A stretch of 64,000 nucleotides of DNA from Roseibacterium elongatum DSM 19469. Lineage in GTDB: Bacteria; Pseudomonadota; Alphaproteobacteria; Rhodobacterales; Rhodobacteraceae. Of this stretch, positions 6,112 to 50,622 are shown in pieces. The first letter of the stretch is position 1. The number at the start of each line of letters is the position of its first letter. A program made the translations under genes and the position numbers. The DNA lies in the NCBI RefSeq assembly GCF_000590925.1, contig NZ_CP004372.1, positions 1,717,001 through 1,781,000 of the forward strand. The letters run 5' to 3'. The notes beneath the pieces were generated by a model that had not been told where the DNA came from, did no database searches, and saw nothing but the letters and a program-made list of their open reading frames with translations.

Positions 6112-8418
6112 GAGCCGTCCCAGAACCCCGGCAGATCGGTCGTCACCTGCACCGGGCGTTGCGCCGGCGACAGCAGCACCAGGCGCACCGGCAGGCGGTC
6201 ATGTCCGACGGTCGGATGCGTCGTGACGCCGAACACCTCTTGCAGGCGCACGGCCACCTCGGGCACCGCGCCGGAATAGTCGATGGACAGGGCGCGCCCC
6301 AGCGGCGTCGTCCAGGCCCGCGGGGCGAGGCGATCGACCTCGGCCATCCGGTCCCAGCCGATCCAGTCCATAAGGGCCTCGGCCGGGTCGAACCGGGCCA
6401 GCCCCTCGGCATCACGGATGCCGGCGAGATAGGGCGCGGCCCAATCTGACAGATGCGCCAGAAGTGTTGCATCGGACATGTCCGCGACGCCCGAGAAACG
6501 CACCCGCGCCCGCAACAGCCGTGCGCGGGTCGACCACCCCAACGCATCCAGCCCCAGGTCGCGGATGCCATCGAGCAGGGCCGCGGTAACCGCCTCGAGG
6601 GGGGGCGTCTTTCCACGCACGGTCCTCCAGAACAAGGGCGCCGAACCTCTCTTGGCGCCGCGCCTCGACCCGGCGGTGGCGTCGCGACCAGCGACAGGTC
6701 TCGACCCAGCGGATGGTGTCGCCATGACTGGCGCGCAATTCGGCCTCGGACAGCACGGCGGCCTGCCGAATCCGTGCCTCGCGCGGGTCGCCGTCGAGGT
6801 CGGTCGCGACGATCAGGCGTTGACCGGCCAGGCTGTCGCCCTCGGGCAGAACGGCGCCCTTGCCGCCCGACAGGACGTAGCGCGGGGCACCGCCCTTGCG
6901 CCGCAGGCCGACCCGATCAGGATAGGCCAGCGCGGCCTGCGCGCCAAGCGACAGGGGTGGACCATCCTCGAACCGCGCGAGGCGCTTGGCCTCCTGCCGG
7001 ATGCGGGCGACGGCCCCGCGATCGGCCCCCATCGCCGCAGGGTCATCAAGGGCGCGCAGCCTCAGCGCCAGATCGGCGCCCCGCCCCCGCAGGGGGTCAC
7101 GCTCGGCCAGAAGCGCGGCCAGGCGCGCCGCACCGGGGCCGCCAAGGCGGACCAGATGCCCGAGGCGCGGATGCAGCGGCAGGCGCACCAGCGCGCGGCC
7201 ATGCGCGGTGATGCGGCCCGCCGCGTCCAGCGCCCCCAACCCCTGCAACAGGGCGCGGGCCTCGGCCATGGCGCCCTCGGGCGGGGGCGTCAGAAAGGCA
7301 AGCCCGTCATCCGCGCCCCAGGCGGCCAGTTCCAGGGCAAGGCCCGCCAGATCGGTGGCCTCGATCTCGGCCGGGGGAAAGGCCGGCAGCGCGCCCTCCT
7401 GCCCCTTGGTCCAAAGGCGATAGCAGACCCCCTCGGCCACGCGGCCCGCACGCCCGCGGCGCTGCTCGGCCTCGGCGCGGCTGACGGGTTCGGTCACCAG
7501 CCGCGACATGCCGCTGCCGGGATCGAACCGCGCCCGCCGCGACCGGCCACCATCGACGACGATGCGCACATCCTCGATGGTCAGCGAGGTTTCGGCGATG
7601 GACGTGGCCAGCACGAGCTTGCGCCCCCGTGCCTCGGGGCGGATGGCGGCGCGCTGCTCGGCAAAAGGCATCGGGCCGTATAGCGGGCGCAGATGCACGT
7701 CGGACGGCAAACGACCCTCAAGCAGCGCCGCGACGCGCCGGATCTCGCCCTCACCGGGCAGGAAGGCAAGGCAACCGCCGGGCGCCTCGGCCATGGCCTG
7801 TTGGATCAGTTGCGCCATCTCGCCCTCCCACCGGGTGTCGCGGGGCAGCGGGCGGTCGAGCCAGCGGGTTGTCACCGGAAAGGCCCGCCCCTGCGAGGTG
7901 ACGAGGGGGGCATCGTCCAGCATCGCCGCGACCGGCCCGGCATCGAGCGTCGCCGACATCACCAGCAGGCGCAGATCGGGCCGCAGGGCGCCGCGCACTT
8001 CCCACGCCAAGGCAAGACCCAGATCGGCATTGAGCGAGCGTTCGTGGAATTCGTCGAACACAAGCGCACCGACCCCGGCAAGGTCCGGATCGTCCTGGAT
8101 CATGCGGGTCAGGATGCCCTCGGTCACCACCTCGATCCGTGTTTCCTTGGACACGCGCGCCTCGCCCCGGATGCGGTAGCCGACCGTGCCCCCCACGGTC
8201 TCGCCAAGCGTGTCGGCCATGCGTTCGGCGGCGGCGCGCGCCGCAAGTCGGCGGGGTTCCAGCATCAACAGCCGGCCTTTGAAACTGCCGGCCTGCAACA
8301 GCGCCAGCGGCACGCGCGTGGTCTTGCCCGCGCCGGGCGGGGCCTGCAGAACAGCGCATCCTTGGGCCTCCAGGGCCGCGATCAGCTCTGGCAGGATCGT
8401 GTCGATGGGCAGGGTCAC
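6003..8418 (-). CDS. hrpB: ATP-dependent helicase HrpB (one frameshift in this sequence)
   Basis: A DEAH-box helicase of the HrpB family, a bacterial RNA/DNA helicase of unsettled role. Walker A is APPGAGKTT (residues 26-34) and the Walker B box is DEFH. Helicase C and HrpB-specific C-terminal domains follow. The frame breaks at a run of seven G on the + strand, 6599-6605. Upstream of the break the protein reads to [14 protein letters not shown] and resumes as [16 protein letters not shown] in the next frame. Removing one G restores a family-length protein of about 804 residues. It starts 7 bp after the stop of the upstream DUF3108 gene. Confidence 0.88.
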
Positions 8419-8425
8419 CGCGGCG

Positions 8426-9187
8426 TCAGTTCCGTCGCACGATGCGGACCGTGCCGTAGATCGTGGGCGAAGCGACCTCGGTCAGATGCCAAAGATCGCC
8501 CACGGGCTCGAATGTCGCGGTGAAGTTGAAATGCGGGTGCCGTGCCAGATCGTCGGCGGGAAACCCCTCCAGCCGGCGATGCGTGGCGTTGCAGGTGATG
8601 ACATCGCCGCTGCGCCGCGGGCTGCCGACGGTGACCGAGGCCAGACGCGCACCGTCATAGATCGACGCGCTCCAGTTGCAGAGCTGGTTTTCCGGGCGGG
8701 CCCGAGCCAGACGGTACATCGCGGTCAGTGGATCGACCGATCCTTGTGCGCGGGATGGCGGAACCGGGGTCGCCGTACCGGCCTGCTGGCTGCGGACGAC
8801 AGGCGTGCCGCCGCGCCAGATCATGTCCACCGCACTTTGGCGCTGGCCGGTATCGACGGTTTCGCGGTAGCTGAGCGCACTCAGCCGCGGCGATCCGAAC
8901 ACGCCCTCGGCGTTCAGGCGGAAATTCACCCGGGCAAAGGCGGCGGCCAAGCCGGTCGCGCGAATGTTCGCGCCGACGGCGTAGGCATTGCCGCTCTCGC
9001 GATGGGCGACCGCGATCCGGGCCACGGTAAGCGGCCCGTAGATGACATCGAAGGCGAAATTGTCCTGGGCCTTCGCCTGCGGCGCCATCGCAATGACCAG
9101 GCCCGCCAGACCCGCCAGAACGCAGCGACGCACACGCCTGACCGGGCTGGACAGAAAGGGGCGGATGCGGGCAAACAACGGTGGCAC
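8426..9187 (-). CDS. DUF3108 domain-containing exported protein
   Basis: A protein of about 253 residues with a basic N-terminus (RRVRR), a hydrophobic stretch and a signal-peptidase-like site after AMAPQAKAQ, followed by a DUF3108 domain. It is probably periplasmic; the function of the family is unknown. I chose the GTG at 9187 because AGGGAG lies about 10 bases upstream. An ATG further out at 9241 would put 18 unlikely residues before the signal peptide and abut the divergent meaB start at 9245. Confidence 0.75.
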
Positions 9188-9244
9188 GGTCGGAATACTC
9201 CCTTCCAGACTGGGCGCATGATAACAGGGAAAGACAGGCAATCC

Positions 9245-10227
9245 ATGACCGAAATCGCAGAGTTGACCCGGCGCATCCTGTCAGGTGACCGCCGTGCGCT
9301 GGCCCGTGCGGTCACCTTGGTGGAAAGCACGCGCGACGATCACCGCGCAAAAGCGACGGCGTTGATGGAGGGGTTGCGCGGGTCGGGGCGGCAGGCCTTG
9401 CGCATCGGTCTATCCGGCACGCCGGGGGTGGGCAAATCCACCTTCATCGAGGCCTTCGGGATGATGCTGACCGAGGCCGGGTTGCGTGTGGCGGTTCTGG
9501 CGGTCGATCCCAGTTCGGCCCGGTCAGGGGGCTCGATCCTGGGGGACAAGACGCGGATGGAGCGCCTCAGCCGCGAGAAAGGCGCGTTCATCCGGCCCTC
9601 GCCCTCGTCGTCGCAACTGGGCGGCGTGGCGCGGCGCACCCGCGAGGCCGTGGCCCTGTGCGAGGCGGCGGGGTTCGACGTGGTGCTGATCGAAACGGTC
9701 GGTGTCGGCCAATCCGAGACCATGGTGGCCGAGATGTGCGACCTGTTCGTCCTGCTGTTGGCGCCGGCGGGCGGCGACGAGTTGCAGGGCGTCAAGCGCG
9801 GCATCATGGAAATGGCTGACCTGATCCTGATCAACAAGGCCGATGGCGACCTCAAGGCGACGGCCACGCGCACGGTGTCGGACTATTCCGGGGCCCTCAG
9901 GCTGCTGCGCAAACGCCCGCAGGACCCCGAGGGGTTTCCCAAGGCCCTGCCGGTCTCGGCCGTCGAGGGCAGCGGGTTGCGGCCGCGTGGGAAGATATGC
10001 AAACCCTTGCCGAGGCGCGCAAGACAAGCGGCTGGTGGGACCGGCGGCGTGCCGAACAGGCGGCCCATTGGTTCGAGGAAGAGGTCCGCTGGGGCCTGTT
10101 GCGCAAGCTGCACACCGATCCCGAGATCCGCGCGGCCATGGCCGATCGTGCGCAAGACGTGGCCGAGGGGCGGCTTACGCCGGACGCTGCGGCCGGGCAA
10201 ATGCTTGCCCGGCTGTCTTCGGCCTGA
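9245..10227 (+). CDS. meaB: Methylmalonyl-CoA mutase-associated GTPase MeaB (one frameshift in this sequence)
   Basis: A G3E-family GTPase that protects and reloads adenosylcobalamin-dependent methylmalonyl-CoA mutase. The P-loop is GTPGVGKS (residues 58-65), followed by [18 protein letters not shown] and INKAD. The frame is lost after VSAVEGSGL; one missing G at about 9981-9982 restores it, giving [14 protein letters not shown] and a 327-residue protein of normal length. The C-terminal part has its own open frame ending at 10227. No mutase gene lies in the window. The gene is divergent from the DUF3108 gene. Confidence 0.88.
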
Positions 10228-10246
10228 CCTCGCTCAGGTTTTCCGA

Positions 10247-10675
10247 TCAGCGCTGTACCGACTGAAGGAAATAGGTCAGGGCCAGGATACGCCCCTGCAC
10301 CACCTCCTCCGCCGTCGCGGCGTTGGGCAGGATCATGGCCTGCGCCTCGGTCGACAGCAAGGTGCCCCAAACCGGCATCTCGCTACCGTGCCCGCGCACC
10401 ATCTGGCGCCCGTCGATCGAGGCCATCACGGCGTCAAAGGGAAAGACTCCGTCGTTTGCCGCCGCCAGCATGGACAGATCACTTGGCGCAACCGCAAACA
10501 GCTCTGCAACCGAGCCATCGCCATGCCCCATCGTACCATGGCATACGGCGCAGTTCTCCTGAAACAGGTTGAACCCGTAGCCGGTGTATCCGGCGCCCGT
10601 GCCTTGGGCAAAGGCGGCCGTGGCACTGACCGCCAGACACACCGCGCCAACCGCAAAATATGAACTTAAGGACAT
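10247..10675 (-). CDS. Periplasmic c-type cytochrome
   Basis: A 142-residue protein with a signal peptide (cleavage near AAFAQ, about residue 23) and one haem-attachment motif CAVCH. A distal methionine in GSEMPVWG is the likely sixth haem ligand. It belongs to the class I cytochrome c fold and acts in the periplasm, probably in electron transfer; the partner is unknown. The ATG at 10675 has GGGAGG upstream, which decides it over longer forms. It converges on meaB with a 19-bp gap. Confidence 0.85.
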
Positions 10676-10735
10676 ATTGCCCTCCCATCTCCTCCCACAT
10701 TCGCGCCGGGGCATGATAGGAGAGCAGTCCAACTA

Positions 10736-10747
10736 TTGCAATTGCAA
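10736..10747. promoter_or_regulatory. Perfect palindrome TTGCAATTGCAA upstream of cytochrome gene
   Basis: A 12-bp perfect palindrome sits 61 bp upstream of the cytochrome c start codon, in the gap after the hlyU stop. It is AT-rich in a GC-rich context and could be an operator; no regulator is assigned. Confidence 0.3.
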
Positions 10748-10773
10748 CAGGTAAGTGGTTTTGGGCGAGCGGA

Positions 10774-11043
10774 TTACCCGAAAAGCCGGTCACCCTGTTC
10801 GTCGATCACCTGCTTTGCCTTGAGGATCGCATAGGGCGCGACCTCGTCCGCGCTCTGGAACCGGTCGGCCCGGATCAGGTGATGCACCTTGGTGTCGCCA
10901 TCGAGATCCTTCTCGATCCGGGCCCCCAGCAAATAGCCGCCATCGGCCTGTTGTGGCGCCGGATAGATGCGAAAGCCCTTGTAGAGTTCGGGCTCGACCT
11001 CGGGCGTGCCCTTGCCGCCGAAGAGTTTCGAGAACAGGGACAT
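10774..11043 (-). CDS. HlyU family protein
   Basis: An 89-residue protein matching the HlyU family (LYKGFRIYPAPQ, GYLLGARIEKDLDG, HHLIRADRF). It is named after a Vibrio haemolysin activator, but these alphaproteobacterial members are not shown to regulate transcription. The N-terminal MSLFSKLFGGK is typical. It is followed in the same direction by the cytochrome gene after 98 bp. Confidence 0.8.
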   Translation of the reverse strand: MSLFSKLFGGKGTPEVEPELYKGFRIYPAPQQADGGYLLGARIEKDLDGDTKVHHLIRADRFQSADEVAPYAILKAKQVIDEQGDRLFG

Positions 11044-11110
11044 GGCGATTCCTCCGTTTGCCTGTGCCCCCGACAGGTAGGGGCTTATCCGGGCCGCGCA
11101 ACCGGAGCGA

Positions 11111-11344
11111 TCATCCGGCCCGCTGTCGTCCCCATGTCAGTTTGGCCATCAACACCAGCCACGGCGTCGCGTGCAGCAGAAGGTCGAAGATGTCCAGCGG
11201 TCGGGTGAGTTCCCCGGCGGCCAGCATCTTGAGTTTCTCCCAGATATGCGGCTCGGGGAAAAAGGGCGACAGGCCGAGTGTCAGGCAAAGGACGATCAGG
11301 ATGGAATAAGGGATGTCAGCGAGGAAGGAGCGGATGGCGGACAT
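11111..11344 (-). CDS. Small conserved membrane protein
   Basis: A 77-residue protein with an N-terminal membrane segment (about residues 10-28, PYSILIVLCLTLGLSPF) and a second hydrophobic stretch near 55-68 (LLLHATPWLVLMAKL). I recall similar small proteins in Rhodobacterales, some loosely labelled as transporter components. No function can be assigned. It precedes hlyU by 67 bp on the same strand. Confidence 0.6.
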   Translation of the reverse strand: MSAIRSFLADIPYSILIVLCLTLGLSPFFPEPHIWEKLKMLAAGELTRPLDIFDLLLHATPWLVLMAKLTWGRQRAG

Positions 11345-11481
11345 GCGATTCTATACTTTGCCAATTTTTGTCGAGTATGCGTAAATGTTCCTGCTAACGG
11401 ACTGTGACTAGCAAGAGAACGGCCATCCGAAAAGATCGGCCTTTTGCCGATAAAAAGATTTGACTGAAGAAAGACGATACG

Positions 11482-11868
11482 ATGCCTACAAAAACCCTGC
11501 TCGCTGCCGCTGCCATCAGCATTCTTGCGTCCAATTCGCCGGCGGAAACCTTTGACTGCAGGCTTGATCCCAATTCGAGTGCGTCGCTCATGCCACACCA
11601 GGTCGTTATCAATCTGAATCGACCGGGTCGTGCAACCGTTTCACATGGCTGGCAGGATGGCCCACTAACCCACGATGTCACGGTTTCGACCTCGGGAAAT
11701 CGGATCGACTTCTCATTCAGAGCAAACGCGTCCATACGGAATACATCAGCACCAATTCATTTCAGGGGCACGCTTCGCCCCGGTCAAAGTCAGCTGTCTT
11801 TGTCATGGCAAGCCGGTGGCGGATGGTCAGGCAATTCACGCGGAGTTTTCGCGTGTAGCCAAAGATAA
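11482..11868 (+). CDS. Hypothetical secreted protein
   Basis: A 128-residue protein with a likely signal peptide (MPTKTLLAAAAISILASNSPA). The mature part has two cysteines, one near each end (FDCRLD and FACSQR), that could form a disulfide, and looks beta-rich. A weak GAAGAAAG site precedes the ATG. It is the only gene-like frame in an AT-richer stretch between the small membrane gene and rpoD, and its codon use is less GC-biased than that of its neighbours, which may reflect transfer. The family is not recognised. Confidence 0.6.
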   Translation: MPTKTLLAAAAISILASNSPAETFDCRLDPNSSASLMPHQVVINLNRPGRATVSHGWQDGPLTHDVTVSTSGNRIDFSFRANASIRNTSAPIHFRGTLRPGQSQLSLSWQAGGGWSGNSRGVFACSQR

Positions 11869-12421
11869 ACCGACACATCGGTGATTGGTCATCGTGCGCC
11901 CGGACGCCAAAGACCTGAAATCCGTGGTGTCGTCGAATCCGGCGCGACGGCGGGCCGAGGTACGTGATCCGGCGTCATGACACTTTCTCGAGGATTGGCG
12001 CGCATCAACCGGCCGCCCACGCGACCGGACGTGCTCGGATTTGGCTGGGCTGAAACACTTCGAGTCGATAGTTAGTCCACCGCCCGGTTCTATTTGGGCA
12101 CAATCTGGATGCGCCATTTGCAGGAGATATGGCGTGTTCAAAAGGATCTTTGCAGTCTGATATTGCGAGAATGCCATCGCGGATATCAATCACAGGGCCT
12201 CGCCGTCCGGGGGAGTGGCTCAGCGTCGCGTCGCAAACACCCCTCGGCCAAAGATGCCGTAGTCGGCCCTTACAGACAGGGCCGCGTGCAATGCGAATAA
12301 AGGTTTCTGCGGGATGGACGCCGAAGCTGGCGCAAGAGCAGGATTTTGCGGGCCAACACCTGCGACCGTCGGTCCGCGGCAAGAGACGTCAAGGCCGCCG
12401 GCCAAGTCTTGCCACAACCAC
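11869..12421. other. Gene-poor, AT-richer gap
   Basis: About 550 bp without a convincing gene, RNA gene or repeat. Short open frames on both strands lack ribosome sites and family resemblance. It lies downstream of rpoD (minus strand) and could hold a decayed gene. Confidence 0.5.
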
Positions 12422-14410
<1,989 letters not shown>

Positions 14411-14500
14411 GGGCAAATATCCTTGTTCGGCTTGAGCGCGCCGCGCCCGGATTCGGGAACCATGCGGCGTGACCCTTGCGTTCGCAACCAATCATTTAGC

Positions 14501-14517
14501 GCGAATCACTGATTCGC
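14501..14517. promoter_or_regulatory. 17-bp palindrome with two GANTC sites upstream of rpoD
   Basis: GCGAATCA and TGATTCGC flank a single C, a perfect dyad in the dnaG-rpoD gap. Each arm contains a GANTC site, the target of the cell-cycle methylase CcrM; a third GANTC lies at about 14450. It may be an operator or a methylation-sensitive element. No T-run follows, so it is not an ordinary terminator. Confidence 0.4.
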
Positions 14518-14526
14518 ATAGGGCGG

Positions 14527-16457
14527 TCACGGCCTTTTCTTCGCGCGACCGGCGCTGTTTAGCAACTCATGGAAGGCGGCGCGGGCCTCCTGTGTGTCGC
14601 CGAATTGCTCGGCGGGGCCGTCATCGCGGGGCGAGAGGGCGGCGTGCTTGCTGCGGACGGCCTGATTCAGGCGAAAGGACAGTGTCGCGTCTTCTCCGTC
14701 CGTGGTCTGGCCGAGATCCTCGAGCGCCTCGGCCATTTCCTCTTCGATCGCGTGGGCCGCGGCGTGTTTCGCGAATTCCTCGCCAAGGCAGATCGCCGCC
14801 TGTTCCACATCTCCGGCACCGATGAGAAACGGTGTTACGCGCAGATGGCCCGTGGCCTCGAGGCTTTCAAGGGTCGGGCCAAGGCCAGCGGCCATTATTT
14901 CACTGCGCAGGGCATCGGGCGTGCGCGACTCGGTGGCCAGCAGGTGATTTGCCAGGCGGGCCTGTTCGGCGTCGCGGGGCGCAAGGCGCTCGAGACGGTC
15001 CTCGTACTGGTCGATCAGGTCGGGAAACCGCACCAGCGTCGTCAGGATCAGCGCGACGCGCAGCGCCTCGCCATCCAGCGTCGTGGCCAGTGCGCGCGTA
15101 TGGGCCAGGGGGCTGGCGGCCTCGGCAAAGCCGCGCGGCCGCCAGCCACCCCTTTGACCCATCGGGCTGCGGGCCGGTCGAAACAGCGCGCGCCGCTTGT
15201 CGGCCAGCGCCTCGGCGTAATGGCGTTTCAACGAGGTGTCGGGAATGCGGCCCACCGCCTGGCGCAGCCGCCGGTCCAGCGCCGCGCGCCGTTCGGGGGT
15301 ATCGAAGCTCTGCCCATCGGTCTCGCGCCGCCACAGCAGGTCGACCAGCGGATCTGCGCCGTCCAGCGCGTCCTGCATGGCCTTTGGCCCACGTGTCTTG
15401 ATCAGGTCGTCGGGGTCCAGCCCCTCGGGCATCAGGCAGAACCGCAGGCTGCGTTCGGGCGACAGGTGCGGCAGCGCAAGATCGATCAGCCGCATCGCGG
15501 CGCGCAGGCCCGCCTTGTCGCCATCCAGCGCGATGACGGGTTCCGGCGCGATGCGCCACAGCAGTTGCAACTGGTCCTCGGTGATGGCGGTGCCAAGGGG
15601 GGCGACGGCCCCCTCGAACCCGGCCTGAACCAGCGCGATCACGTCCATGTAGCCCTCGGCCACGATCAGCGGATGGCCCTTGCCCGCCGCCTCGCGGGCG
15701 GGGGCGTGGTTGTAGAGGGCGCGGCCCTTGTCGAAGAGCGGGGTCTCGCGGCTGTTGAGGTATTTGGCACGCGCGTTGGGGTCCATCGCGCGCCCGCCAA
15801 AGCCGATGCAGCGCCCGCGCGTGTCGCGGATGGGAAAGGTGATGCGGTCGCGAAACGCGTCATAGGGTGCGCCGCCATCGTCGGGGCGCGTCGCGATCCC
15901 GGACTCGATCACATGCTCGGCAGGCAGCCCCTTGCCCGTCAGGGCGGTAAAGGCCCCCTGCCGCTGCGCCGGGGCAAAGCCGATCTCGAAACGGCCAGCG
16001 TGGCCTGGCTCAGGCCGCGCCGGTCCAGATAGGCGCGCGCCTCGGCCGCGGCCGCGGTCTTGAGTTGCAGGCGGAAATGGGCCACCGCCGCCTCGGTCGC
16101 ATTGGCAAGCTGGGTGGCGTGATCGGCCTTTTCCTGCGCGCGCGGGTCGCGGGCGGGCATCTGCATGCCCGCTTCGCGGGCCAGGATCTCGACCGCCTCC
16201 ATGAAGCCGACATTCTCGGTCTCTTTCACGAAGCCGATGGCGTCGCCCTTGGCATGGCAGCCAAAGCAGTAATAGAACCCCTTGCGGTCATCGACGTGAA
16301 AGCTGGCCGTCTTTTCCTGGTGAAAGGGGCAGGGCGCCCACATGTCGCCCTTGGCCTGGTTCGATTTGCGATTGTCCCAGATGACCTTGCGCCCGACCAC
16401 CTGCGCCAGCGAGGTGCGCGATCGTAGCTCGTCAAGGAATCCGGGGGGCAGGCTCAT
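14527..16457 (-). CDS. dnaG: DNA primase DnaG (one frameshift in this sequence)
   Basis: Primase that makes RNA primers for replication. The CHC2 zinc ribbon is at C43, H46, C64 and C67, and the TOPRIM motif AEGYMDVIAL lies further on. The frame breaks near 15993-15994: one missing G on the + strand restores ATLARFEIGFAPAQRQ and a 643-residue protein of normal length. As dnaG is essential, a sequence error is far more likely than a pseudogene. The ATG at 16457 fits the family N-terminus MSLPPGFLDELR. It lies upstream of rpoD as in many bacteria. Confidence 0.93.
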
Positions 16458-16646
16458 GTTCCATATATCGGGGCGCCACATGCCCGAGTCCAGTCGCGCG
16501 ACGCAGACGGCGACCGGGATGCCGGATAATCCACAAGTCTTTTGCGATGGCTACGGCCGGGCCGGGCTTGACCTTCGTCAAGGCACCGCAGGCGGGTTCG
16601 GTGCGACACCTCGCACGACGAACCGCTTTTCAGATTGCGAGGGGTC

Positions 16647-36408: not shown

Positions 36409-36852
36409 CTAGCCGGACGCCCCGCGCAGGCGGGCCGCCCAGAGATGGGCAGCCTGTTCGATCAGGTCGAGCGCCCCCTCGAAATCGCGGGTGAAATACG
36501 GATCGGGCACGTCGCCCCCGCCGAGCGGATCCAGATACATCGCCAGCGCGGCGCGCGCGCCCTCGGGCGCCATGCGCGCGAGATCGGCATGGTTTTCCGA
36601 ATCCATTGCAAGGATCAGGTCGAACCGGTGGAAATCGGCCCGGCTGACCTGCCGTGCGCGCAGGCCGGACAGATCATAGCCCCGCGTCAGGGCCGCGGCC
36701 TGTGCAGGGCCGTAGGGCGGCTTGCCGATATGCCAGTCGCCGGTGCCGGCGCTGTCGATGTGGTGGTCGGGCAGGCGGGCGCGCAAAACGCCCTCGGCGG
36801 TGGGCGAGCGGCAGATATTGCCAAGGCAGACGCACAGGATACGGTCGGTCAT
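36409..36852 (-). CDS. Low-molecular-weight protein-tyrosine phosphatase
   Basis: A 147-residue phosphatase with the signature CLGNICRSP at residues 8-16 and the general-acid DPY motif near residue 118. It removes phosphate from tyrosines; in exopolysaccharide systems such enzymes act on tyrosine autokinases, but none is adjacent. The ATG at 36852 puts the P-loop at the usual distance. It is divergent from the sirtuin gene. Confidence 0.92.
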   Translation of the reverse strand: MTDRILCVCLGNICRSPTAEGVLRARLPDHHIDSAGTGDWHIGKPPYGPAQAAALTRGYDLSGLRARQVSRADFHRFDLILAMDSENHADLARMAPEGARAALAMYLDPLGGGDVPDPYFTRDFEGALDLIEQAAHLWAARLRGASG

Positions 36853-38740: not shown

Positions 38741-38765
38741 TGCGAAACTTCGCTGGATCGCTGGA

Positions 38766-40645: not shown

Positions 40646-40678
40646 GGGATTGCGCCGCCTTTGGCGTCGCCCGGGGAA

Positions 40679-40711
40679 GCGAGGCAAGGGGCATCGAGCC
40701 CCTTGCCTCGC
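40679..40711. terminator. Strong 14-bp hairpin after the DUF2161 gene
   Basis: A perfect 14-bp inverted repeat with loop ATCGA, followed at 40714-40728 by a smaller hairpin (ACGTGC/GCACGT). There is no T-run, so its termination efficiency is uncertain. It directly precedes the recurring motif at 40729. Confidence 0.5.
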
Positions 40712-40728
40712 TGACGTGCTGCGCACGT

Positions 40729-40760
40729 GGCATATTTGAAGGATAAAGATGGGGGCGGGG
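40729..40760 (+). repeat. Recurring intergenic motif, copy 1
   Basis: The motif GGCATATTT...GGATAAAGAT followed by G-rich sequence ends 9 bp before the yjbQ start. A second copy is at 48554-48585. Its position just upstream of start codons suggests a regulatory or leader role. Confidence 0.55.
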
Positions 40761-40769
40761 AGGCATGCC

Positions 40770-41196
40770 ATGCAGACGGAATTCGAGATCGAGACGCGCG
40801 GGGCCGGGATGGTCGCGTTCACGGGGCGATGTGGCGCGGTGGATTGCAGGGCAGGGCGACGGGGTGCTGACGCTGATGGTGCGCCACACCTCGGCCAGTC
40901 TGGTGATCCAGGAAAACGCCGATCCGGATGTGCAGGCGGACCTGATGGGGTTTTTCGACCGGTTGGTCCCGCCGGCCGACGACCCGTCGATGCGGTGGCT
41001 GGCCCATGTGCTGGAGGGGCCGGACGACATGCCGGCCCATATCAAGGCGGCGTTGTTGCCGGTGTCGTTGCAGGTTCCGGTGCTGGGCGGGCGGATGCGT
41101 TTGGGGACATGGCAGGGCATCTACCTGGTCGAGCATCGGGCGCGGCCCCATCGGCGGCGCGTGGCGGCGCATTTCCTGCCCGACCGGGCGGGGTGA
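40770..41196 (+). CDS. yjbQ: YjbQ/UPF0047 family protein (one frameshift in this sequence)
   Basis: A YjbQ-family protein, linked to thiamin phosphate synthase-like activity. The N-terminus MQTEFEIETRGAGMV is in one frame and continues as GDVARWIAGQGDG in the next. The break lies at the G4 run 40823-40826, and removing one G restores a 141-residue protein. The metal-site region HTSASLVIQENAD and the terminal GTWQGIYLVEHR are intact. GGGGAGG precedes the ATG. Confidence 0.87.
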
Positions 41197-41362
41197 GTCC
41201 GTTTCGCCACCCTTGATCCCCCTTGATCTTGTGGCGGGAATTGACCTCTACCCAAGCCCTGACCGCTGACCTATAGTGCCTGTGGATAAGTGGGCATCAG
41301 ACCCAAGGTATGAGGCAGGCGCGGCGAGATCCCCGCGCGATGGGACAGGAAAGGGGACGGCC

Positions 41363-41830
41363 ATGCGCTGCCCGTTTTGCGGAAATGTAGACACCCAGGT
41401 GAAGGATTCGCGCCCGGCCGAGGATCACGTGGCGATCCGGCGGCGGCGCTTTTGCCCGGCCTGTGGGGGGCGGTTCACCACCTATGAACGCGTGCAGCTG
41501 CGCGATCTGGTCGTCGTCAAGTCGAACGGCAAACGTGAGGATTTCGAGCGCGACAAGCTGGAGCGCTCGGTGCGGATCGCGTTGCAGAAGCGCCCCGTCG
41601 AGCCCGAGCGGATCGACCAGATGATTTCGGGCATCGTGCGCCGTCTGGAAAGCATGGGCGAGACGGATATCCCGTCGAAAACCATCGGCGAGATCGTCAT
41701 GGAGCGCCTGGCCGCGATCGACACTGTCGCCTATGTGCGGTTTGCCAGCGTCTACAAGAATTTTCAGGCCACGGACGATTTCGAGGATTTCCTGGCCGAG
41801 TTGCGACCGCCGGTGCAGCCCGGCAGCTGA
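41363..41830 (+). CDS. nrdR: Transcriptional repressor NrdR
   Basis: A 155-residue regulator of ribonucleotide reductase genes. The zinc ribbon is at C3, C6, C31 and C34, and the ATP-cone follows ([16 protein letters not shown]). It is the first gene of the nrdR-ribD-ribE-ribBA-ribH-nusB cluster common in alphaproteobacteria and ends 3 bp before ribD. Confidence 0.95.
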
Positions 41831-41833
41831 CCC

Positions 41834-42948
41834 ATGGACCATGACGAGCAGGACGCGCGCTGGATGCGTCTGGCGCTGGCGCTGGGGGCGTCGGGGGCAG
41901 GGGCGGTGCTGGCCCAACCCGGCGGTGGGCTGTGTGATCGTCAAGGCGGGGCGCGTCATCGGGCGCGGCTGGACGCAGCCAGGGGGGCCGGCCCCATGCC
42001 GAGGTGGTGGCGCTGGCGCAGGCCGGGTCGCACGCCCATGGGGCGACGGCCTATGTCAGCCTCGAGCCGTGCAATCATCATGGACAGACACCGCCCTGTT
42101 CCGAGGCGCTGATCGCGGCCGCGCTTGCGCGGGTCGTCGTCGCCACGCGTGACCCCGACCCGCGCACCGATGGCGGCGGCGTGGCGCGGCTGCGCACCGC
42201 CGGAATCGCCGTGCAGACCGGGGTGTGCGAGGCCGAGGCCCTGCGCGATCACGCGGGGTTTCTGACCCGTGTCCGGCTGGGGCGGCCCGCCGTGACGCTG
42301 AAGCTGGCGGCGACATTGGACGGGCGGATCGCCACGGCCACCGGGGAAAGCCGCTGGATCACGGGCCCGCAGGCGCGGCGCTGGGTGCATGGCGCCCGGG
42401 CGCGGCATGATGCGGTGCTGGTCGGGGCGGGAACGGCGCGGGCCGATGACCCGTCGCTGACCGTGCGGGGCCTGGGGATGGTGCATCAGCCGGTGCGCGT
42501 GGTGCTGTCACGGCGATTGGACCTGCCGCTCGACAGCACCCTTGGCCGGACGGCGCGGCAGGTGCCGGTCTGGATCTGCCATGGCCCCGATGCCCCGGCC
42601 AGGGCCCGCGACCGCTGGGACGCGGCGGGCGCGACACTGATCGAGGTGGCGGCCGGGCCGGGGGGGCAGCTTGACGGTGCGGCGGCGCTGGCGGCCCTTG
42701 GGGCCAGGGGGCTGACGCGGGTGTTCTGCGAAGGCGGCGGGGCCTTGGCCGCGACGTTGCTGGCGGCGGATCTGGTGGACGACCTGGCCATGTTGGCGGC
42801 CGGTCTGGCGCTTGGGGCCGAGGGCACGCCTTCGATCGGCGCGATGGGGATCGCGGCCCTGTCGGACGCGCCGCGCTTCGCCTTGCGCGATACGCAGGTG
42901 CTGGATGGGGACGTGCTGTCGCTCTGGTCGCGATCGGCCGAGGCGTAG
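41834..42948 (+). CDS. ribD: Riboflavin bifunctional deaminase/reductase RibD (two frameshifts in this sequence)
   Basis: RibD carries out the second deamination and the reduction steps of riboflavin synthesis. Its start (MDHDEQDARWMRLALALG) is in one frame and WPNPAVGCVIVKAGRVIG in another, while HAEVVALAQAG and the zinc site EPCNHHGQTPPC lie in a third. The breaks fall in the G5 run 41892-41896 and the G6 run 41982-41987; one fewer G in each gives a 370-residue protein with both domains intact. The reductase domain reads TLDGRIATATGESRWITG. It follows nrdR by 3 bp. Confidence 0.92.
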
Positions 42949-42967
42949 CCGGCCCGCCCGGCGCGGG

Positions 42968-45058
42968 TCAGCCCCGGCCGCGCCACAGATGGCTGTAATC
43001 CGAAAGCCAAGCCTGCAGCCTTGCCAGCGCCCGGAGCCGCACGGGGCGCGCGCCGGTCTGGCCTCGGGACAGACGGTCCACCGCGATTTCGACGGGGCAG
43101 GGCCGGTCTGTCACCGGGTCGTGATAGCGCGGATAGGCGATCAGGGCGGCATGGACCAGCGCCGGCAGCGATACCCGCGCCGACCGGCGCGCGGGCACGT
43201 CGCCAAGGTCGGTCGTCAGGCCCCACCCGGCATAGAAGGGCGCGCCCAGGGTGGTCACGGGAACACCACGGATCAGTGCCTCGAACCCCATGTTCGAGGT
43301 CATGGTCACGACGCGATCGGCCGCGTTCAGCCAGGCGTCGGCATCTGCCCTGTGCGCGACGTGATCGGCCAGCGCGGCGAGGCGGTCCTCGGGGATCTGG
43401 CCGGGGCGCAATCCGGCCTCGACATCCGGGTGCGGCTTGTACACGATCCATTCCGAAGGGTGCAGCCGCCGCGCGGTGCGCAGCAGTTCCTCGTTGGTGC
43501 AGATTTCTCCGGCACCCAGCCGGATCGACGCATCATCCTCGACCTGGCCGGGCACGAGGATCATGGCGCGGCCCGTGGGGGGGCGGGTGACCGCGGTCGC
43601 GCCATCGAGATTGTATTTCGTCAGACGCAGTTTGCGCAGCCGGCCCAGCAGACGCTCGGCACGGCGCAGCGCCTCGGGCCGGGCGAGGGCGGCCTGGGCG
43701 ATCAGCTGTTCCAGCCGGCTGTCCCGCGTCGGGTCGTAGTAGATGCCCAGATCGTCGAGGACCAAGGACAATGGCGGAACAAGGGCCGCGCCCAACCCGC
43801 GCGAGCGCAGAAACCCGTCCTCGACCCTGTGCAGGGGGCGGTCGGCCTGTGCGCAGGCCGCGCGGAGGGGGCGGGTCTCGTGACCGGACCAGACCATGAC
43901 GGGGCGGCCATCGGCGGCGGCGCGCGCGGGCTCGTCGATGAAATCCAGCGTGCCGCCCGAGGTCTGGAACATGGCCCTGAGATGCCGACGTTTCCACCGC
44001 CGCATGCCGACGGCGACATGGCCGGTGCGATCCTCGCGCCAGGCGCGGGTCATCGCCTCGAGCGCGCCGAGCGCCGTTTCGATGTCGCACAGGCGGTCGT
44101 CATAGGGATCGTACCAGGTCGGGTAGAGGATGAGCGCGGCGGCCACCAGTTGCGCGCGGCTGAGCGTCCGGTTGCGGCGCGCCGGTATCGGCCGCCGGTC
44201 GTCGGTCAGGCCCCAGCCGGCGTAGAACGGCACGCCGAAGGTCACCGGGCGATGGCCGGCCATGATGGCCTCGAACCCCAGTTGCGAGCTCACGGTGTAG
44301 ACCGCACGCGCGCCCTCGAACAGGCGCTGGGGCGAGATCGGACGATCCTCGATCACGACGCCCTCGGGCAGGGTGGCCGGATCGAAATGGCCGTGGCGGT
44401 GGCCGCTGCGCGTCTCAGGGTGGGTCTTGATGACGATCTGCGCGTCGGGGTGATCCTGCCGTGCCCAGGTCAGCATCTCGGCGAAACTGTCGGCATTGGC
44501 CGCCCCCAACCGGACCGAGGCATCGCCGCGCGTCTGGTCGATGACCAGCACGTAGCCGGGCGGGGGCGGGGCAAGATCGGGATCGGTGGCGGAATATTTC
44601 GTCAGGTGGGCGTCGGCGATCCGCGCCATGACTTCGCGCGCGCGGTCCATCAGGGCGGTGTTGTCCAAGGGATGACGCGCCAGAATATCCTCGAGATCCG
44701 AGGGGCGCGACGCATCGAAATGCATGCCCTGGCCGTCGATCACCAGCCCCAGTGGGGCGTCGCCCGAGCGGCCGGGATGCAGCGAGCGCAGAAACGCGTC
44801 CTCGATCCGCACCAGGGTGGCATCGCTGGCAGTGGCGGCTTTCTCGCCGCGGGGGGCATAGCGCGAATGACCCCAGACAAGCACGCAATCCTCCGGCCCC
44901 GGTTTGCCCAGGCGCAGGTCGTATCCGGCTAGGGTCAGGATGCGCCGGACGCGCGCGTTGGTGAGAAACCCGGCGTTGAAATGGTAGGCCCGCTGCCGCG
45001 CACCGGTTCCCGCGTGGTTGGAAGCGGATCGCGGGCGCATGTCGGCAGCCCCGGGCAC
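42968..45058 (-). CDS. kpsC: Capsular polysaccharide biosynthesis protein KpsC
   Basis: A 696-residue protein with two tandem Kdo-transferase halves. Each half has a VRIEDAFLRS/HRVEDGFLRS motif, a KTHPE/KPHPD motif, and an FYAGWGLT motif (about residues 278-285 and 620). KpsC builds the beta-Kdo linker joining capsule to lipid. The start is a GTG at 45058 directly after the wza-like stop, or an ATG at 45040. It is the last gene of the three-gene capsule operon, facing the ribD end with a 19-bp gap. Confidence 0.88.
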   Translation of the reverse strand: MPGAADMRPRSASNHAGTGARQRAYHFNAGFLTNARVRRILTLAGYDLRLGKPGPEDCVLVWGHSRYAPRGEKAATASDATLVRIEDAFLRSLHPGRSGDAPLGLVIDGQGMHFDASRPSDLEDILARHPLDNTALMDRAREVMARIADAHLTKYSATDPDLAPPPPGYVLVIDQTRGDASVRLGAANADSFAEMLTWARQDHPDAQIVIKTHPETRSGHRHGHFDPATLPEGVVIEDRPISPQRLFEGARAVYTVSSQLGFEAIMAGHRPVTFGVPFYAGWGLTDDRRPIPARRNRTLSRAQLVAAALILYPTWYDPYDDRLCDIETALGALEAMTRAWREDRTGHVAVGMRRWKRRHLRAMFQTSGGTLDFIDEPARAAADGRPVMVWSGHETRPLRAACAQADRPLHRVEDGFLRSRGLGAALVPPLSLVLDDLGIYYDPTRDSRLEQLIAQAALARPEALRRAERLLGRLRKLRLTKYNLDGATAVTRPPTGRAMILVPGQVEDDASIRLGAGEICTNEELLRTARRLHPSEWIVYKPHPDVEAGLRPGQIPEDRLAALADHVAHRADADAWLNAADRVVTMTSNMGFEALIRGVPVTTLGAPFYAGWGLTTDLGDVPARRSARVSLPALVHAALIAYPRYHDPVTDRPCPVEIAVDRLSRGQTGARPVRLRALARLQAWLSDYSHLWRGRG

Positions 45059-45062
45059 CAGT

Positions 45063-46220
45063 CTACTGACCGAGGGACGAAAGCGTGTCGGCCGTGCCCA
45101 CGGCGCTGGTCAGAGTGCCCGTCAGAGCGCTGATGGCGCTGTTCCACTGGGTGATCGGGGCCGAGGTCACATAGACCGTGTCGTCGTCGCGGATGACGAA
45201 ATCGCGTGCCTCGAACATGCCGGTCGGCGCCGTCAGGTCAAGAACATAGACGAAGCGCTGCGTGCCGATCAGGTCCGAGCGGCCGAGCACGGCATTGGCC
45301 ATTTCCTCGGGTTCGTTCCTGAGAACGAAGACGCCGGTTGGGTCGGCCTGGGCCGTGTTCAGACCGCCGACCGAGGCGATGGCCTCGATCGCGGAAATTG
45401 TCTGGCTTTCGAAGGGCACGATCGTCTGCGACGCGGTGGCCCCGAGCGCGGTAAAGCTGCGCCCGTCTTCCTCGACCAGAATGCGGTCGCCGTCGCGCAG
45501 GGCGATGTCGACCTCGGGCTCGCGGAAGATGTCCTGATACCAGACCGTCCCGGAATGGCTGCCGCGGATCACCGTGACCTGCGTGATCTCGGGGTTGGGG
45601 GTGACGCCCCCCGCCGCGGCCAGAACGCCGGACAGACGCCGTGTCGAGCGTTCGATCGGGTAGACCCCTTCGCCGCCGACCTGCCCCGACAGGATCACGG
45701 TGGCCCCGTCGCCGACCTCGCGTTCGATGATGACCTGGGGGTCGGGGGTTTGTTCGTCGAGGTTGCGGGTGATGATTTCGCGCAGCTGTTCCGGCGTGTT
45801 CCCGGCCGCGCGGATGCGCCCGGCATAGGGGATGAAGATGAACCCGGCGCCATCGACCTGCACCCCCGAGACGACCGAGGCGTTCGCCCCCTCGCCCGCC
45901 AGCAGGCCGTCGGTGACGTTTTCGTAGATGGTCAGGCGCAGGATGTCGCCGGGGCGGATGATCTCGGTATTGGCGTTGCCCGCATTCAGCAGCGCCGCGG
46001 GAAAGCTCATGGCCGGCACGGCCGAGGTGACGGCGGTCACGCGGCTGTTGACCTCGACCACGAAGGCGTCGCCCTCGCGCTGGACCGAGGCGGCGTAGAT
46101 CTGATTGCGTGTCGGGCCCGCCGAGGGCAGAAAACCGTTCAGCATCCCGCATGACGAGACAGCCGATACAACGGCAAAAAGCACGACCGGGCGGGCCGCT
46201 TTCAACGCCTGCGATGTCAC
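45063..46220 (-). CDS. Polysaccharide export outer-membrane lipoprotein (Wza/KpsD-like)
   Basis: A 385-residue lipoprotein with a signal ending VSSC (Cys24 lipidation site). A Poly_export domain (RPGDILRLTIYEN, about 90-190) is followed by two SLBB-like domains (about 193-300). It should form the outer-membrane channel for capsule export. It starts 93 bp after kpsS and ends 4 bp before kpsC. The ABC transporter genes (kpsMT, kpsE) are not in the window. Confidence 0.88.
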   Translation of the reverse strand: MTSQALKAARPVVLFAVVSAVSSCGMLNGFLPSAGPTRNQIYAASVQREGDAFVVEVNSRVTAVTSAVPAMSFPAALLNAGNANTEIIRPGDILRLTIYENVTDGLLAGEGANASVVSGVQVDGAGFIFIPYAGRIRAAGNTPEQLREIITRNLDEQTPDPQVIIEREVGDGATVILSGQVGGEGVYPIERSTRRLSGVLAAAGGVTPNPEITQVTVIRGSHSGTVWYQDIFREPEVDIALRDGDRILVEEDGRSFTALGATASQTIVPFESQTISAIEAIASVGGLNTAQADPTGVFVLRNEPEEMANAVLGRSDLIGTQRFVYVLDLTAPTGMFEARDFVIRDDDTVYVTSAPITQWNSAISALTGTLTSAVGTADTLSSLGQ

Positions 46221-46313
46221 GGAGTGGGCTCCTTACGCTCTGAAACTGCCTCGGGTCGTCTTTTTATTGCCGCTGAAGGTAGCGAATTCCGCGCCCATAA
46301 GGAAGCCCTCGTG

Positions 46314-47603
46314 TCATTTCACGAGGTTGAGGTGTTGCCGCGGTGCCGGACGCCCGGCCTCGAGCGCGTCATAGGGGTCTTCGGCGCTGAGCATCATGTC
46401 CACGACCTGGCGCAGCAATTGCCGCCGCCCGCGCGCCGAGTAGAAGCTGCCGGTGACCTGCGAGGTTTCCAGCAGGTAGTGGCGGTAGTCGCGATAGGCC
46501 CGGCTGTCGGGGCGCTGCGGCATCTGGAAGAAGTCGCTGAGCGGCTGGTCGGACACGAATTCCGGCTTGAGATACACGGCCTGGCCGAATGCCTTGAGCG
46601 GCAGGCCGCGCCACAACGCCTGTTGCGCGGCCGTCGAGTTGACGGTGACCGCGCTGCGCGCGTCGTTGAGCAACGGCGCAAGCTTGCCGCCGCGCACGTA
46701 ATGGACGCGGTGCGCCACACCATGGTGCCGCGCGATGCGCCGGATGTCGGCGCGAATGGGCGCGCGGCCATCCTCCAGCGGGTGGGCCTTGAATACCAGA
46801 TGGTGGTGGGTGGGTGCCCCATTGGCAAAGCCCGTGATCAGCACCTCGAGAAAGTCGGTCATGCTGTCGAAGGGGCCGTGATCGCGAAAACTGGCATCAT
46901 GTTCCAGCTGCAGCAAGGCCAGATGAAAGGGAAAGCCGCCGGTCTTGACGCGCAACGTGGCCCGCACACGATCCATCCAGTGCCAGGGCATCATGGCCAG
47001 CCGCCTGAGATAAAGGCGAAACTCCTGCCGGACACTCAGCGCGCGATGCGGCCGAAAGGCGGCGTAGCGGGCATTCCCGACCATGACGAACCAATGGTAG
47101 AGCGCGCCGTAAAAGACGTGATGGCGCATGTCACCCCAGCGCGCGGGGGCGTCCGGCAGGTCGAGGTCCAGCCCAGTGAGGGCGTGACGCATGGCCGCGA
47201 CATCGGTGGTCATGACGCGCGAATGCCCGTTCGCGCCGCCGCGTTCATAGGTCACCCAATAGGGGCGCAGGTAGCCTTCCTCGAAGACATGGACGGTGAG
47301 GCCGCGGGCGCGGGCGGCGGCGATGGCGGTGGCGTGGATCGGGCGGGTGTCGCCATAGAGCACCAGATCGGTGATCGCCTTGGCGTCGAGCAGCTGCGCG
47401 ACCGTCTCGGGCCAGGTCTCGATCGGGTCGGTCTGGGCGATGTAGCTTGCGCGATCGGACCAGAACACCTCGTCCCCGCGGTTGAACCCCACACGCCAGA
47501 CCCGTGCGCCCGCATCGGTCAGCAGGCGTGACAGGCGCGCGAAGAAAGGGCCATGCGGACCCTGAAGAAAAAGGAAACGGCGCTGTGTCGGTCGCGGGGT
47601 CAA
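46314..47603 (-). CDS. kpsS: Capsule biosynthesis protein KpsS
   Basis: A protein of about 429 residues of the KpsS/LipB family that adds the first Kdo to phosphatidylglycerol. It begins with FLFLQGPHGPFF and contains VHVFEEGYLRPYW, VFKAHPLEDGR and VNSTAAQQALWRGLPLKAFG. No ATG fits the N-terminus; a TTG at 47603 with AAAAGG about 8 bases upstream is the best start. The same frame stays open antisense for about 3 kb further upstream, which is not coding. It is the first gene of the operon. Confidence 0.82.
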   Translation of the reverse strand: MTPRPTQRRFLFLQGPHGPFFARLSRLLTDAGARVWRVGFNRGDEVFWSDRASYIAQTDPIETWPETVAQLLDAKAITDLVLYGDTRPIHATAIAAARARGLTVHVFEEGYLRPYWVTYERGGANGHSRVMTTDVAAMRHALTGLDLDLPDAPARWGDMRHHVFYGALYHWFVMVGNARYAAFRPHRALSVRQEFRLYLRRLAMMPWHWMDRVRATLRVKTGGFPFHLALLQLEHDASFRDHGPFDSMTDFLEVLITGFANGAPTHHHLVFKAHPLEDGRAPIRADIRRIARHHGVAHRVHYVRGGKLAPLLNDARSAVTVNSTAAQQALWRGLPLKAFGQAVYLKPEFVSDQPLSDFFQMPQRPDSRAYRDYRHYLLETSQVTGSFYSARGRRQLLRQVVDMMLSAEDPYDALEAGRPAPRQHLNLVK

Positions 47604-47810
47604 CGAAGATACCTTTTCAAACAGCCGGGAACCCGCCGGATGACGGGAGACCCATAGCCTGCCTGGCAGATCTGAACAATTCCTTGCGGCGGGGGCGGGG
47701 CGGGAATGCGGCCCGGCTGTGGCCGGCGGCCCACGGTGCAAACCCACTTGCCCCCAAGGTGGTGGTGGCGCTAGGTCGGGCGGACTCGTTTGCTTAGGGA
47801 GCGGCCCCCA

Positions 47811-48401
47811 ATGTTTACTGGATTGATCACCGATATCGGCACCCTGCGCGGTGTGGATCACCGCGGCGACCTGCATGCCCGGATCGGCACCGGCTATGAC
47901 ATGGCCACGGTCGAGATCGGCGCCTCGATCGCCTGCGATGGCGTCTGCCTGACAGTGACGGCCAAGGGAGACGACTGGTTCGAGGTGGATATCTCGGCCG
48001 AGACGGTCTCGAAGACGACCCTGGGCGACTGGGCCGAGGGCAAGCGGGTGAACCTGGAGCGGTCTTTGCGTGTGGGCGATGAGTTGGGCGGTCATATCGT
48101 GTCGGGCCATGTCGATGGCGTGGCCGAGATCGTGGCAACGGAAGACGAGGGCGAGTCGACGCGCTTCACCTTCCGCGCGCCCGAGTCTCTGGCACGCTTC
48201 ATCGCGCCGAAAGGGTCGGTCGCGCTGAACGGGACCTCCCTGACGGTGAACGAGGTCGAGGGGGCCACGTTCGGGGTTAACATCATCCCCCACACCAAGG
48301 AGATGACGACCTGGGGCGATGCCGGGGCGGGCGATTGGGTGAACCTGGAGATCGACACGCTGGCCCGCTACGTCGCGCGGTTGCAGGACTGGCCGGGCTG
48401 A
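47811..48401 (+). CDS. ribE: Riboflavin synthase (alpha subunit)
   Basis: A 196-residue enzyme that converts two lumazines to riboflavin and a pyrimidine. It has the two lumazine-binding repeats (MFTGLITDIG, ASIACDGVCLTV; then LGGHIVSGHVDG, VALNGTSLTVNEV). AGGGAG precedes the ATG. It is separated from ribD by the minus-strand capsule operon. No FMN riboswitch was recognised in the 207-bp leader. Confidence 0.95.
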   Translation: MFTGLITDIGTLRGVDHRGDLHARIGTGYDMATVEIGASIACDGVCLTVTAKGDDWFEVDISAETVSKTTLGDWAEGKRVNLERSLRVGDELGGHIVSGHVDGVAEIVATEDEGESTRFTFRAPESLARFIAPKGSVALNGTSLTVNEVEGATFGVNIIPHTKEMTTWGDAGAGDWVNLEIDTLARYVARLQDWPG

Positions 48402-48553
48402 GGGCCGGGCCGCGCGCCGAGAGGGGGGAGCGCCCGCCGCACGCGCCCTGCGGGCACATTTGGCGGGCGCTGGCCGGGCTGTCGCCGGCGGCCCGGATCG
48501 GCTCGCGGCGGTCCAGTCGTTGCGTGCGAGGTCGGCTGCGGGCGCCTCCGGCG

Positions 48554-48585
48554 GGCATATTTTGCGGGATAAAGATCGGGGCGGG
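48554..48585 (+). repeat. Recurring intergenic motif, copy 2
   Basis: GGCATATTTT...GGATAAAGAT and trailing GGGGCGGG, directly before the start codon at 48586. It matches copy 1 at 40729-40760 closely. It lies at the end of a GC-rich, gene-free leader downstream of ribE. Confidence 0.55.
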
Positions 48586-48819
48586 ATGGCGCGGGACGTG
48601 GTGATGCGGTCGATCGAGGATGGCTCGGCGCAACGCTGTGTTGACCTGATCCGGCTGGGATCGGGCGGTTGGGCGTTCGTCGAATGCCGCCGCGATCCCG
48701 AAGATGACCATGGCTGGCGGCGGGTGACCGCGCCCCTGGGCGGGTTCGCATCGGAGGGCGAGGCCCTTGTCGCGGCGCGGCGCGCGGTGGCATGGTTGGC
48801 CCAGGAGGATCGCGCATGA
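48586..48819 (+). CDS. Small hypothetical protein
   Basis: A 77-residue soluble protein (MARDVVMRSIEDGSAQRCVD). It sits inside the riboflavin cluster between ribE and ribBA and overlaps the next gene by 4 bp (ATGA), so the two are probably translated together. No domain recognised. Confidence 0.6.
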   Translation: MARDVVMRSIEDGSAQRCVDLIRLGSGGWAFVECRRDPEDDHGWRRVTAPLGGFASEGEALVAARRAVAWLAQEDRA

Positions 48820-49382
48820 GTGGCATCGGACATAATGGCGGGCCGTCGTTTGAGGCAGGTCACGGGTTTCGCAAACTGGCCTGGAGCAAGGCGCGCAAGG
48901 CGCTGTTGCCGGCCCTGCCGCTGGAGGTGGTGCGGGTGCGCGTGGCGCGGGCCGAGCGTCTCGGCCTGCCCTATCGCACCTATGCCACGATCCGCGCGAC
49001 GGCGGGGCGGGATATCGTGGCCTTTCTGTTTTCGGGCAACGCGCTGGGCCTGACCGCGCGCCGCATCGCGATCCCGACGGTCGAGGCGGACCGGCTGGAG
49101 GGCCTGTCCGGGGCGGCGGTGCGGCTGGGCGCGGTTTACCGGGCGCCGGAGGCGGTGCTGGCGGCGAACGCAGCACGGCTGGAGGCCACCGCCGAGGCGC
49201 CCGCGATGAGCGTGTCGTGGGGCGCTGCACGCGCGCGATTGCGCGGCCTTCTCCACGCGCATCGTCTGCCGCTGGATGGTGTGGTGCTGGTGGCGGCCAC
49301 GGGGATCGAGGCCGAATGGTGCGCCACGGCGGGCCTGGCCGGCACGATCCCGGCAGAGCGGTTCTTTGACCGGCAGACCTGA
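48816..49382 (+). CDS. Hypothetical protein with MSGIGHNGGP N-terminus
   Basis: A 188-residue protein starting MSGIGHNGGPS, a leader seen in many alphaproteobacterial hypotheticals. The rest is alanine-rich and alpha-helical with a basic region (AWSKARKALLPALPLEVVRVRVAR). It overlaps the preceding gene by 4 bp and lies 108 bp upstream of ribBA. The role is unknown; its location hints at a link to flavin metabolism only by context. Confidence 0.6.
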   Translation: MSGIGHNGGPSFEAGHGFRKLAWSKARKALLPALPLEVVRVRVARAERLGLPYRTYATIRATAGRDIVAFLFSGNALGLTARRIAIPTVEADRLEGLSGAAVRLGAVYRAPEAVLAANAARLEATAEAPAMSVSWGAARARLRGLLHAHRLPLDGVVLVAATGIEAEWCATAGLAGTIPAERFFDRQT

Positions 49383-49490
49383 GCCGGCAGCCCCGCGCGC
49401 CCGCGCCCCCGCGTCGCGGGCCGGCGCGTCTGGCAAAGTCCGGCGGCATGGTCTATCTGCCAGCACAAACCGACGCGTGAAGGGGCGACC

Positions 49491-50622
49491 ATGACGCAAG
49501 CATACGAAACCCCCGGCCCGGTCGAGCGGGACTGGTCCGACGCCATCTCCTCGATCGAGGAGATCATCGAGGATGCCCAGAACGGGCACATGTTCATTCT
49601 TGTCGATCACGAGGACCGCGAGAACGAGGGTGATCTGGTGATCCCCGCGCAATGGGCGACGCCTGATGCGATCAACTTCATGGCGATGCATGGGCGCGGG
49701 CTGATCTGTCTCTCGATGACCGGCGATCGGATCGAGCAGCTGGGCCTGCAACTGATGTCGACGAACAACTCGTCGCGCCACGAGACGGCCTTTACCATCT
49801 CGATCGAGGCGCGCGAGGGGGTGACCACGGGCATCTCGGCTGCCGACCGGGCCAAGACGGTGCAGGTGGCCATCGACGCGTCCAAGGGCGCCGCCGATAT
49901 CGCGACGCCGGGCCATGTGTTCCCGCTGCGGGCGCGGGATGGCGGCGTGCTGGTGCGCGCGGGCCATACCGAGGCGGCGGTCGATATCTCGCGCTTGGCG
50001 GGGCTGAACCCCTCGGGGGTGATCTGCGAGATCATGAACGAGGACGGGTCGATGGCGCGTCTGCCCGACCTGATCGCATTCGCGCAGCGCCACAACCTGA
50101 AGATCGGGACGATCTCGGACCTGATCGCGTATCGCCGGCGACACGACAACCTGGTCAAGGTGCGCGCCGAGGAGGTCATCGAAAGCGAGTTCGGTGGCCA
50201 ATGGCGCATGCGCATCTACACCGACGAGACGCAGGGCGCCGAGCATATCGTGCTGATCGAAGGGCGATATCACGACGGAGGAGCCGGTGCTGGTACGGAT
50301 GCACGCGCTGGACCCGGTGATGGATATCGTGGGCGCCGGACCCAAGGGGCGGGCCGGTGAATTCGCCGACGCCATGCGGTTGATCGCCAGCGAGGGGCGC
50401 GGGGTCGTGGTGCTGCTGCGGGACCTGACCATGAAACTGGCGGTCGCGGGCGAGGCCTCGCCCCAGACATTGCGGCAATACGGTCTGGGGGCGCAGATCC
50501 TGTCGTCGCTGGGCCTGTCGGAGATGATCCTGCTGACCAACTCGCCGAAACCCAAGGTCGTGGGGCTGGATGCCTACGGGCTGAGCATCCTCGACACGCG
50601 CAAGATATCGGAGGTGGACTGA
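49491..50622 (+). CDS. ribBA: RibB with a GTP cyclohydrolase II-like C-terminal domain (one frameshift in this sequence)
   Basis: The N-terminal domain (about 1-210) is 3,4-dihydroxy-2-butanone-4-phosphate synthase: DHEDRENEGDLVIPA, GRGLICLSM, and HTEAAVDISRLAG. The C-terminal domain is RibA-like, but the zinc cysteines and HSEC-type motif of GTP cyclohydrolase II are absent, as in RibBX-type hybrids. The frame breaks at the G3 run 50262-50264; one fewer G gives GDITTEEPVLVRMHAL and a 376-residue protein. The stop overlaps the ribH start by one base. Confidence 0.9.

Follow-up and report, generated by a model that had tools for sequence, protein, structure and literature searches.

Six conserved genes of the published (2014) Roseibacterium elongatum DSM 19469 chromosome are interrupted by frame breaks that are very probably consensus errors and not mutations, as judged by comparing the sequence with that of its relatives. 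The window, which is the whole stretch of 64,000 bases that was analysed (positions 1717001-1781000 of a 3,555,109-base single-contig genome), contains seven such breaks in a frameshift-aware alignment with the congener G003: one each in hrpB, meaB, dnaG, yjbQ, and ribBA, and two in ribD. An earlier note on this DNA had listed the same seven; all are present in the assembled sequence and recur when three more congeners (G001, G002, and G004) serve as references. We favour an artefact because relatives have each gene in one frame and conservation continues past the break in another frame, because single-copy core genes are hit and such breaks occur in all five places sampled with few in the congener, and because the assembly merged Illumina and 454 data according to its published description (PMC4149021).

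Two of the genes lie on the minus strand. The hrpB gene (6006..8481 of the window) has its N-terminal part in the open frame 6415-8481 and its C-terminal part in the open frame 6006-6812, with a gain-type break within 6594-6600 that recurs with G001 and G004; the HrpB profile of NCBIfam matches over positions 1-615 and then 621-824, abutting at the break. Likewise, dnaG (14530..16550) is divided between the open frames 15942-16550 (N-terminal) and 14530-16287 (C-terminal) by a loss-type break within 15991-15998, found again with G001, G002, and G004, and its profile positions 4-150 and 151-412 meet there. On the plus strand, the frame of meaB (9155..10227) changes at a loss-type break within 9974-9987, also seen with G001, G002, and G004; the N-terminal part lies in the frame 9155-10030 and the C-terminal part, including the stop, in the frame 9916-10227, and profile positions 6-250 and 245-322 abut. 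The ribBA gene (plus strand, 49383..50619) is split into a RibB part (open frame 49383-50357) and a RibA part (open frame 50257-50619) by a gain-type break within 50256-50268 that recurs with the same three congeners, and its profile is covered from 1-243 and then from 239-359, again abutting.

The remaining three breaks are all gain-type and on the plus strand. That of yjbQ lies about 24 codons into the gene, within 40821-40833, and recurs with G001; the part 3' of it (open frame 40747..41193) matches positions 31-128 of the NCBIfam YjbQ profile. In ribD, a first break at 41882..41891, preceded by 12 aligned codons, recurs with G001 and G004, and a second at 41979..41991, inside a six-G run, recurs with G001, G002, and G004. 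The part 3' of this second break (open frame 41938..42945) covers positions 38-341 of the RibD profile.

The signs and counts given in the earlier note, five bases gained and two lost, agree with our alignments, although these do not fix whether meaB and dnaG each lost the G that the note names. Its statement that every break lies at a short G/C tract applies to six of the seven sites, whose intervals contain a G/C run of at least 3, dnaG being the exception. That conserved sequence resumes in another frame is borne out by the abutting HrpB, MeaB, DnaG, and RibBA profiles and by an excess of third-position mismatches on both flanks at 7/7 window sites, an excess that is also the rule by which sites were selected and that a very recent loss would share. 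The fading of this third-position excess that relaxed selection would bring about in a true pseudogene was not found at the seven sites.

To call these breaks, we compared the reading frames of G003, a draft assembly in 10 contigs, with 464 kb including the window (431 frames, 387,018 aligned nt), using an aligner that permits frame changes. Events were retained when, on both flanks, the third positions of the reference codons held an excess of the mismatches, a filter that kept 28 of 142 raw events here and 6 of 135 in the reverse direction. A strict rule, requiring flanks of at least 20 codons and an identity of at least 0.65, gave 21 events here vs 1 in G003. The first ribD site fails the 20-codon requirement, having only 12 codons before it, and was retained since two other congeners show the same break. 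With a second reference set of 153 reading frames from G001, G002, and G004, 19 of 61 raw events passed the filter, 17 of them on the seven sites (hrpB, 2; meaB, 3; dnaG, 3; yjbQ, 1; ribD, 2 and 3; ribBA, 3); the other two, at 36848 and 53797, were rejected.

Stop-to-stop frames by themselves told nothing useful (142 raw frame changes here vs 135 in the congener): where a gene is broken, its open frame continues beyond the break and looks like the reverse event. Filtering by codon-usage margin instead left 19 events here vs 3 in the congener. One site passing that filter, 40757, was dropped as it precedes the yjbQ start and lacks third-position bias. Site 36848 was dropped as a divergent gene pair, made up of a minus-strand start and a plus-strand SIR2-family gene, and site 53797 for having only 18 codons before it. 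Site 5858 passed the third-position filter and was not counted, as the match runs on for only 13 aligned codons after it; this possible loss-type change at the end of a gene fits gene-end variation and assembly error alike.

The earlier note placed the errors between 6599 and 50264 of the window. Seven do lie there, and the same damage was present in every block sampled, so that its scope was understated. We examined four extra blocks of 100 kb near 0.2, 0.8, 2.5, and 3.1 Mb, each against the matching stretch of G003, and found 3, 6, 11, and 5 strict events, respectively, vs 0, 2, 1, and 0 in G003 (25 vs 3 in all). Over the five places, this amounts to 47 events on 761,058 aligned nt, of which 46 are strict and one is the first ribD site; G003 has 4 strict events on 735,543 aligned nt. 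Breaks are thus spread across the assembly and rare in a close relative. Within the 464-kb block, which holds 22 of the 47 events (21 strict plus the first ribD site), the window accounts for 7 of the 22 vs a background share of the block of 0.16; it is somewhat richer in breaks than its surroundings, not alone in having them. The extra block with the most events was G000:C1:2500001-2600000 (L169-L173), whose 11 strict events indicate that error density varies along the chromosome. Of the three G003 events in the extra blocks, two mark a single place (block B, joined stretch L179-L184, positions 96848 and 96849) that passes the strict rule on each strand, in overlapping frames; either a genuine small indel or a boundary between two genes may lie there.

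The 47 events hit 41 out of the 818 aligned gene matches (~5%); extrapolated to the 3,540 annotated genes, the sampled rate would put the number affected at roughly 180. Outside the window, 35 genes were hit in the five sampled places. For 33 of these, omitting two that cross stretch ends, the intact copy in G003 was profiled against NCBIfam, and 24 of the 33 gave a match at 1e-20. Among these are genes for an acetyl-CoA acyltransferase, a methylmalonyl-CoA mutase family protein, crotonyl-CoA carboxylase/reductase, phosphoenolpyruvate synthase, AMP nucleosidase, exodeoxyribonuclease III, and a XerC/XerD-type recombinase. Two events each were found in the genes for RimK, CcmA, and the B12-dependent ribonucleotide reductase (NrdJ), those of the last, in the block 2500001-2600000, being 74 bases apart or less. 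The break in ribosomal protein L17 lies close to the C-terminus, past the matched domain.

Genes that the cell needs, and has once, are among those broken. DnaG is essential, and the DnaG zinc ribbon, DHBP synthase, and RibD_C each gave one match genome-wide, indicating that there are no spare copies. In relatives, dnaG is a single open frame of 585-726 aa (20/20), vs 203 aa here for the part that carries the zinc ribbon; the main ribBA frame measures 378-615 aa (12/12) vs 325 aa, and the main ribD frame 366-587 aa (12/12) vs 336 aa. When the C-terminal part of dnaG was used as a query, no intact dnaG from a second assembly appeared among the best 120 of 7,939 protein-database matches, in which the sole 100% match was the 461-aa piece of the same genome and the next best reached 85%. 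Among the matches listed, the closest named relatives of this dnaG belong to Roseicyclus and Roseibacterium.

The gains and the losses differ in their sequence context. We scored the interval of each break for its longest G/C run, taking as null random coding places of the same genome with one base doubled or dropped. Among the 27 gains, a run of at least 4 was present at 17 (null 0.179, p = 3e-7) and one of at least 5 at 8 (null 0.046). The 20 losses showed no G/C-run excess (run of at least 4 at 4/20, null 0.127, p = 0.24), and A/T runs were not in excess at the break intervals of the 47 events. Scored on the congener's own bases, the gains retained a run of at least 4 at 9/27, with 0.120 expected (p = 0.003), and the losses again showed no excess (4/20, p = 0.21). 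Events also cluster, with 11 neighbours within 1.5 kb vs 4.7 expected (p = 0.005), as could also arise in already dead genes. The G+C content at 200 bases was slightly higher round events (0.673 vs 0.660, p = 0.01); at 1,000 bases, a link seen with 22 events (p = 0.002) faded with 47 (p = 0.09).

The earlier note ascribed the breaks to systematic homopolymer error in the assembly, and 454 sequencing is known to over-call homopolymer runs. Assembly error itself is strongly supported, given the single-copy core genes hit, the chromosome-wide spread, the rarity in the congener, and the merged assembly, and false pseudogene calls would follow from annotating these very probable errors, as the note had warned. 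The label "homopolymer error" is supported for the gains only and does not suit the losses, those in dnaG and meaB included.

According to the genome report (PMC4149021), Velvet assembled the Illumina reads into 97 contigs and Newbler assembled a 454 paired-end run of 1/8 lane; both assemblies were then broken up into artificial reads of 1,000 bases, combined with phrap, edited manually, and closed by PCR and primer walking. The errors would then come mainly from the Newbler consensus of the shallow 454 run, as over-calls in G/C runs with some under-calls, and this consensus may have entered at the many places where the phrap merge with the Velvet contigs took it. We consider this particular route somewhat better than an even bet. 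It fits the gains as well as the clustering and spread of the events, and by itself leaves the losses unexplained; with 20 of 47 events being losses that lack a link to runs, simple 454 homopolymer error fails to account for them. A simple dropout of Illumina reads predicts a link to G+C content, and the absence of a clear one at 1,000 bases argues against it. Compared with the 454/Newbler consensus indel errors familiar from other bacterial genomes, the present case is alike in its single-base gains concentrated in short G/C runs, its broken core genes, and a 454 run in the project, and unlike in its losses, which make up 20 of 47 events and lack a run link.

The indels could instead be real in the sequenced DNA, if it came from a degenerate or mutator culture in which many genes had broken recently. 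Third-position bias on either side of a break is also expected after recent mutations, and this bias, being the selection rule of the survey, is compatible with them; several genes with two events (ribD and those of RimK, CcmA, and NrdJ) would also fit. Against this stand the genome's only DnaG, only ribBA, and only ribD among the genes hit; a strain with ~5% of its conserved gene matches broken (41/818), DNA primase included, should not grow, as is well established. We therefore regard such a culture as very improbable.

Even less credible is the view that the breaks are real and that slippage at G/C runs, by the ribosome or during transcription, carries expression across them. The gains do sit in such runs, where slippage could in principle occur, yet both signs of shift are present, the losses have no link to runs, dnaG has no G/C run, and no common motif was apparent in the printed break contexts, as judged by eye only. 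Relatives also carry these genes as one frame: a frame change kept among them, as in programmed frameshifting, was not seen for dnaG (20/20 single-frame) or for the main frames of ribBA and ribD (12/12 each), and the congeners have single frames at the seven sites too, which argues against programming. A narrower version, in which some of the G/C-run gains are real and are tolerated in dozens of core genes because polymerase or ribosome slippage yields sufficient full-length protein, seems just as far-fetched. Consensus error is thus the reading we retain, and the breaks are very probably an artefact with no new biology.

Should ~5% of conserved genes prove to be split in error, no list of missing or dead genes and no pathway call drawn from this chromosome can be relied on until it is resequenced. 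The proportion of aligned conserved gene matches frameshifted here (41/818) recalls the NCBI assembly flag "many frameshifted proteins". Published as "finished" at 93x coverage (PMC4149021), the genome of this environmental marine bacterium from coast sand has served comparative work on aerobic anoxygenic phototrophs (PMC6052148), and our results are a useful warning on a type-strain reference genome: a single-contig, "finished", 100%-complete label is no guarantee of correct reading frames. The literature searched yielded no published report of frameshifts in the R. elongatum genome, and the words "frameshift", "frame shift", and "pseudogene" are absent from the available text of PMC4149021 and PMC6052148. 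The chromosome length is given in PMC4149021 as 3,555,109 bp in Table 3, with which the genome analysed here agrees, vs 3,555,102 in the abstract. Table 2 of the same report gives DSM 19309T as the source material, and its platforms entry includes MiSeq and leaves out 454, despite the 454 library used.
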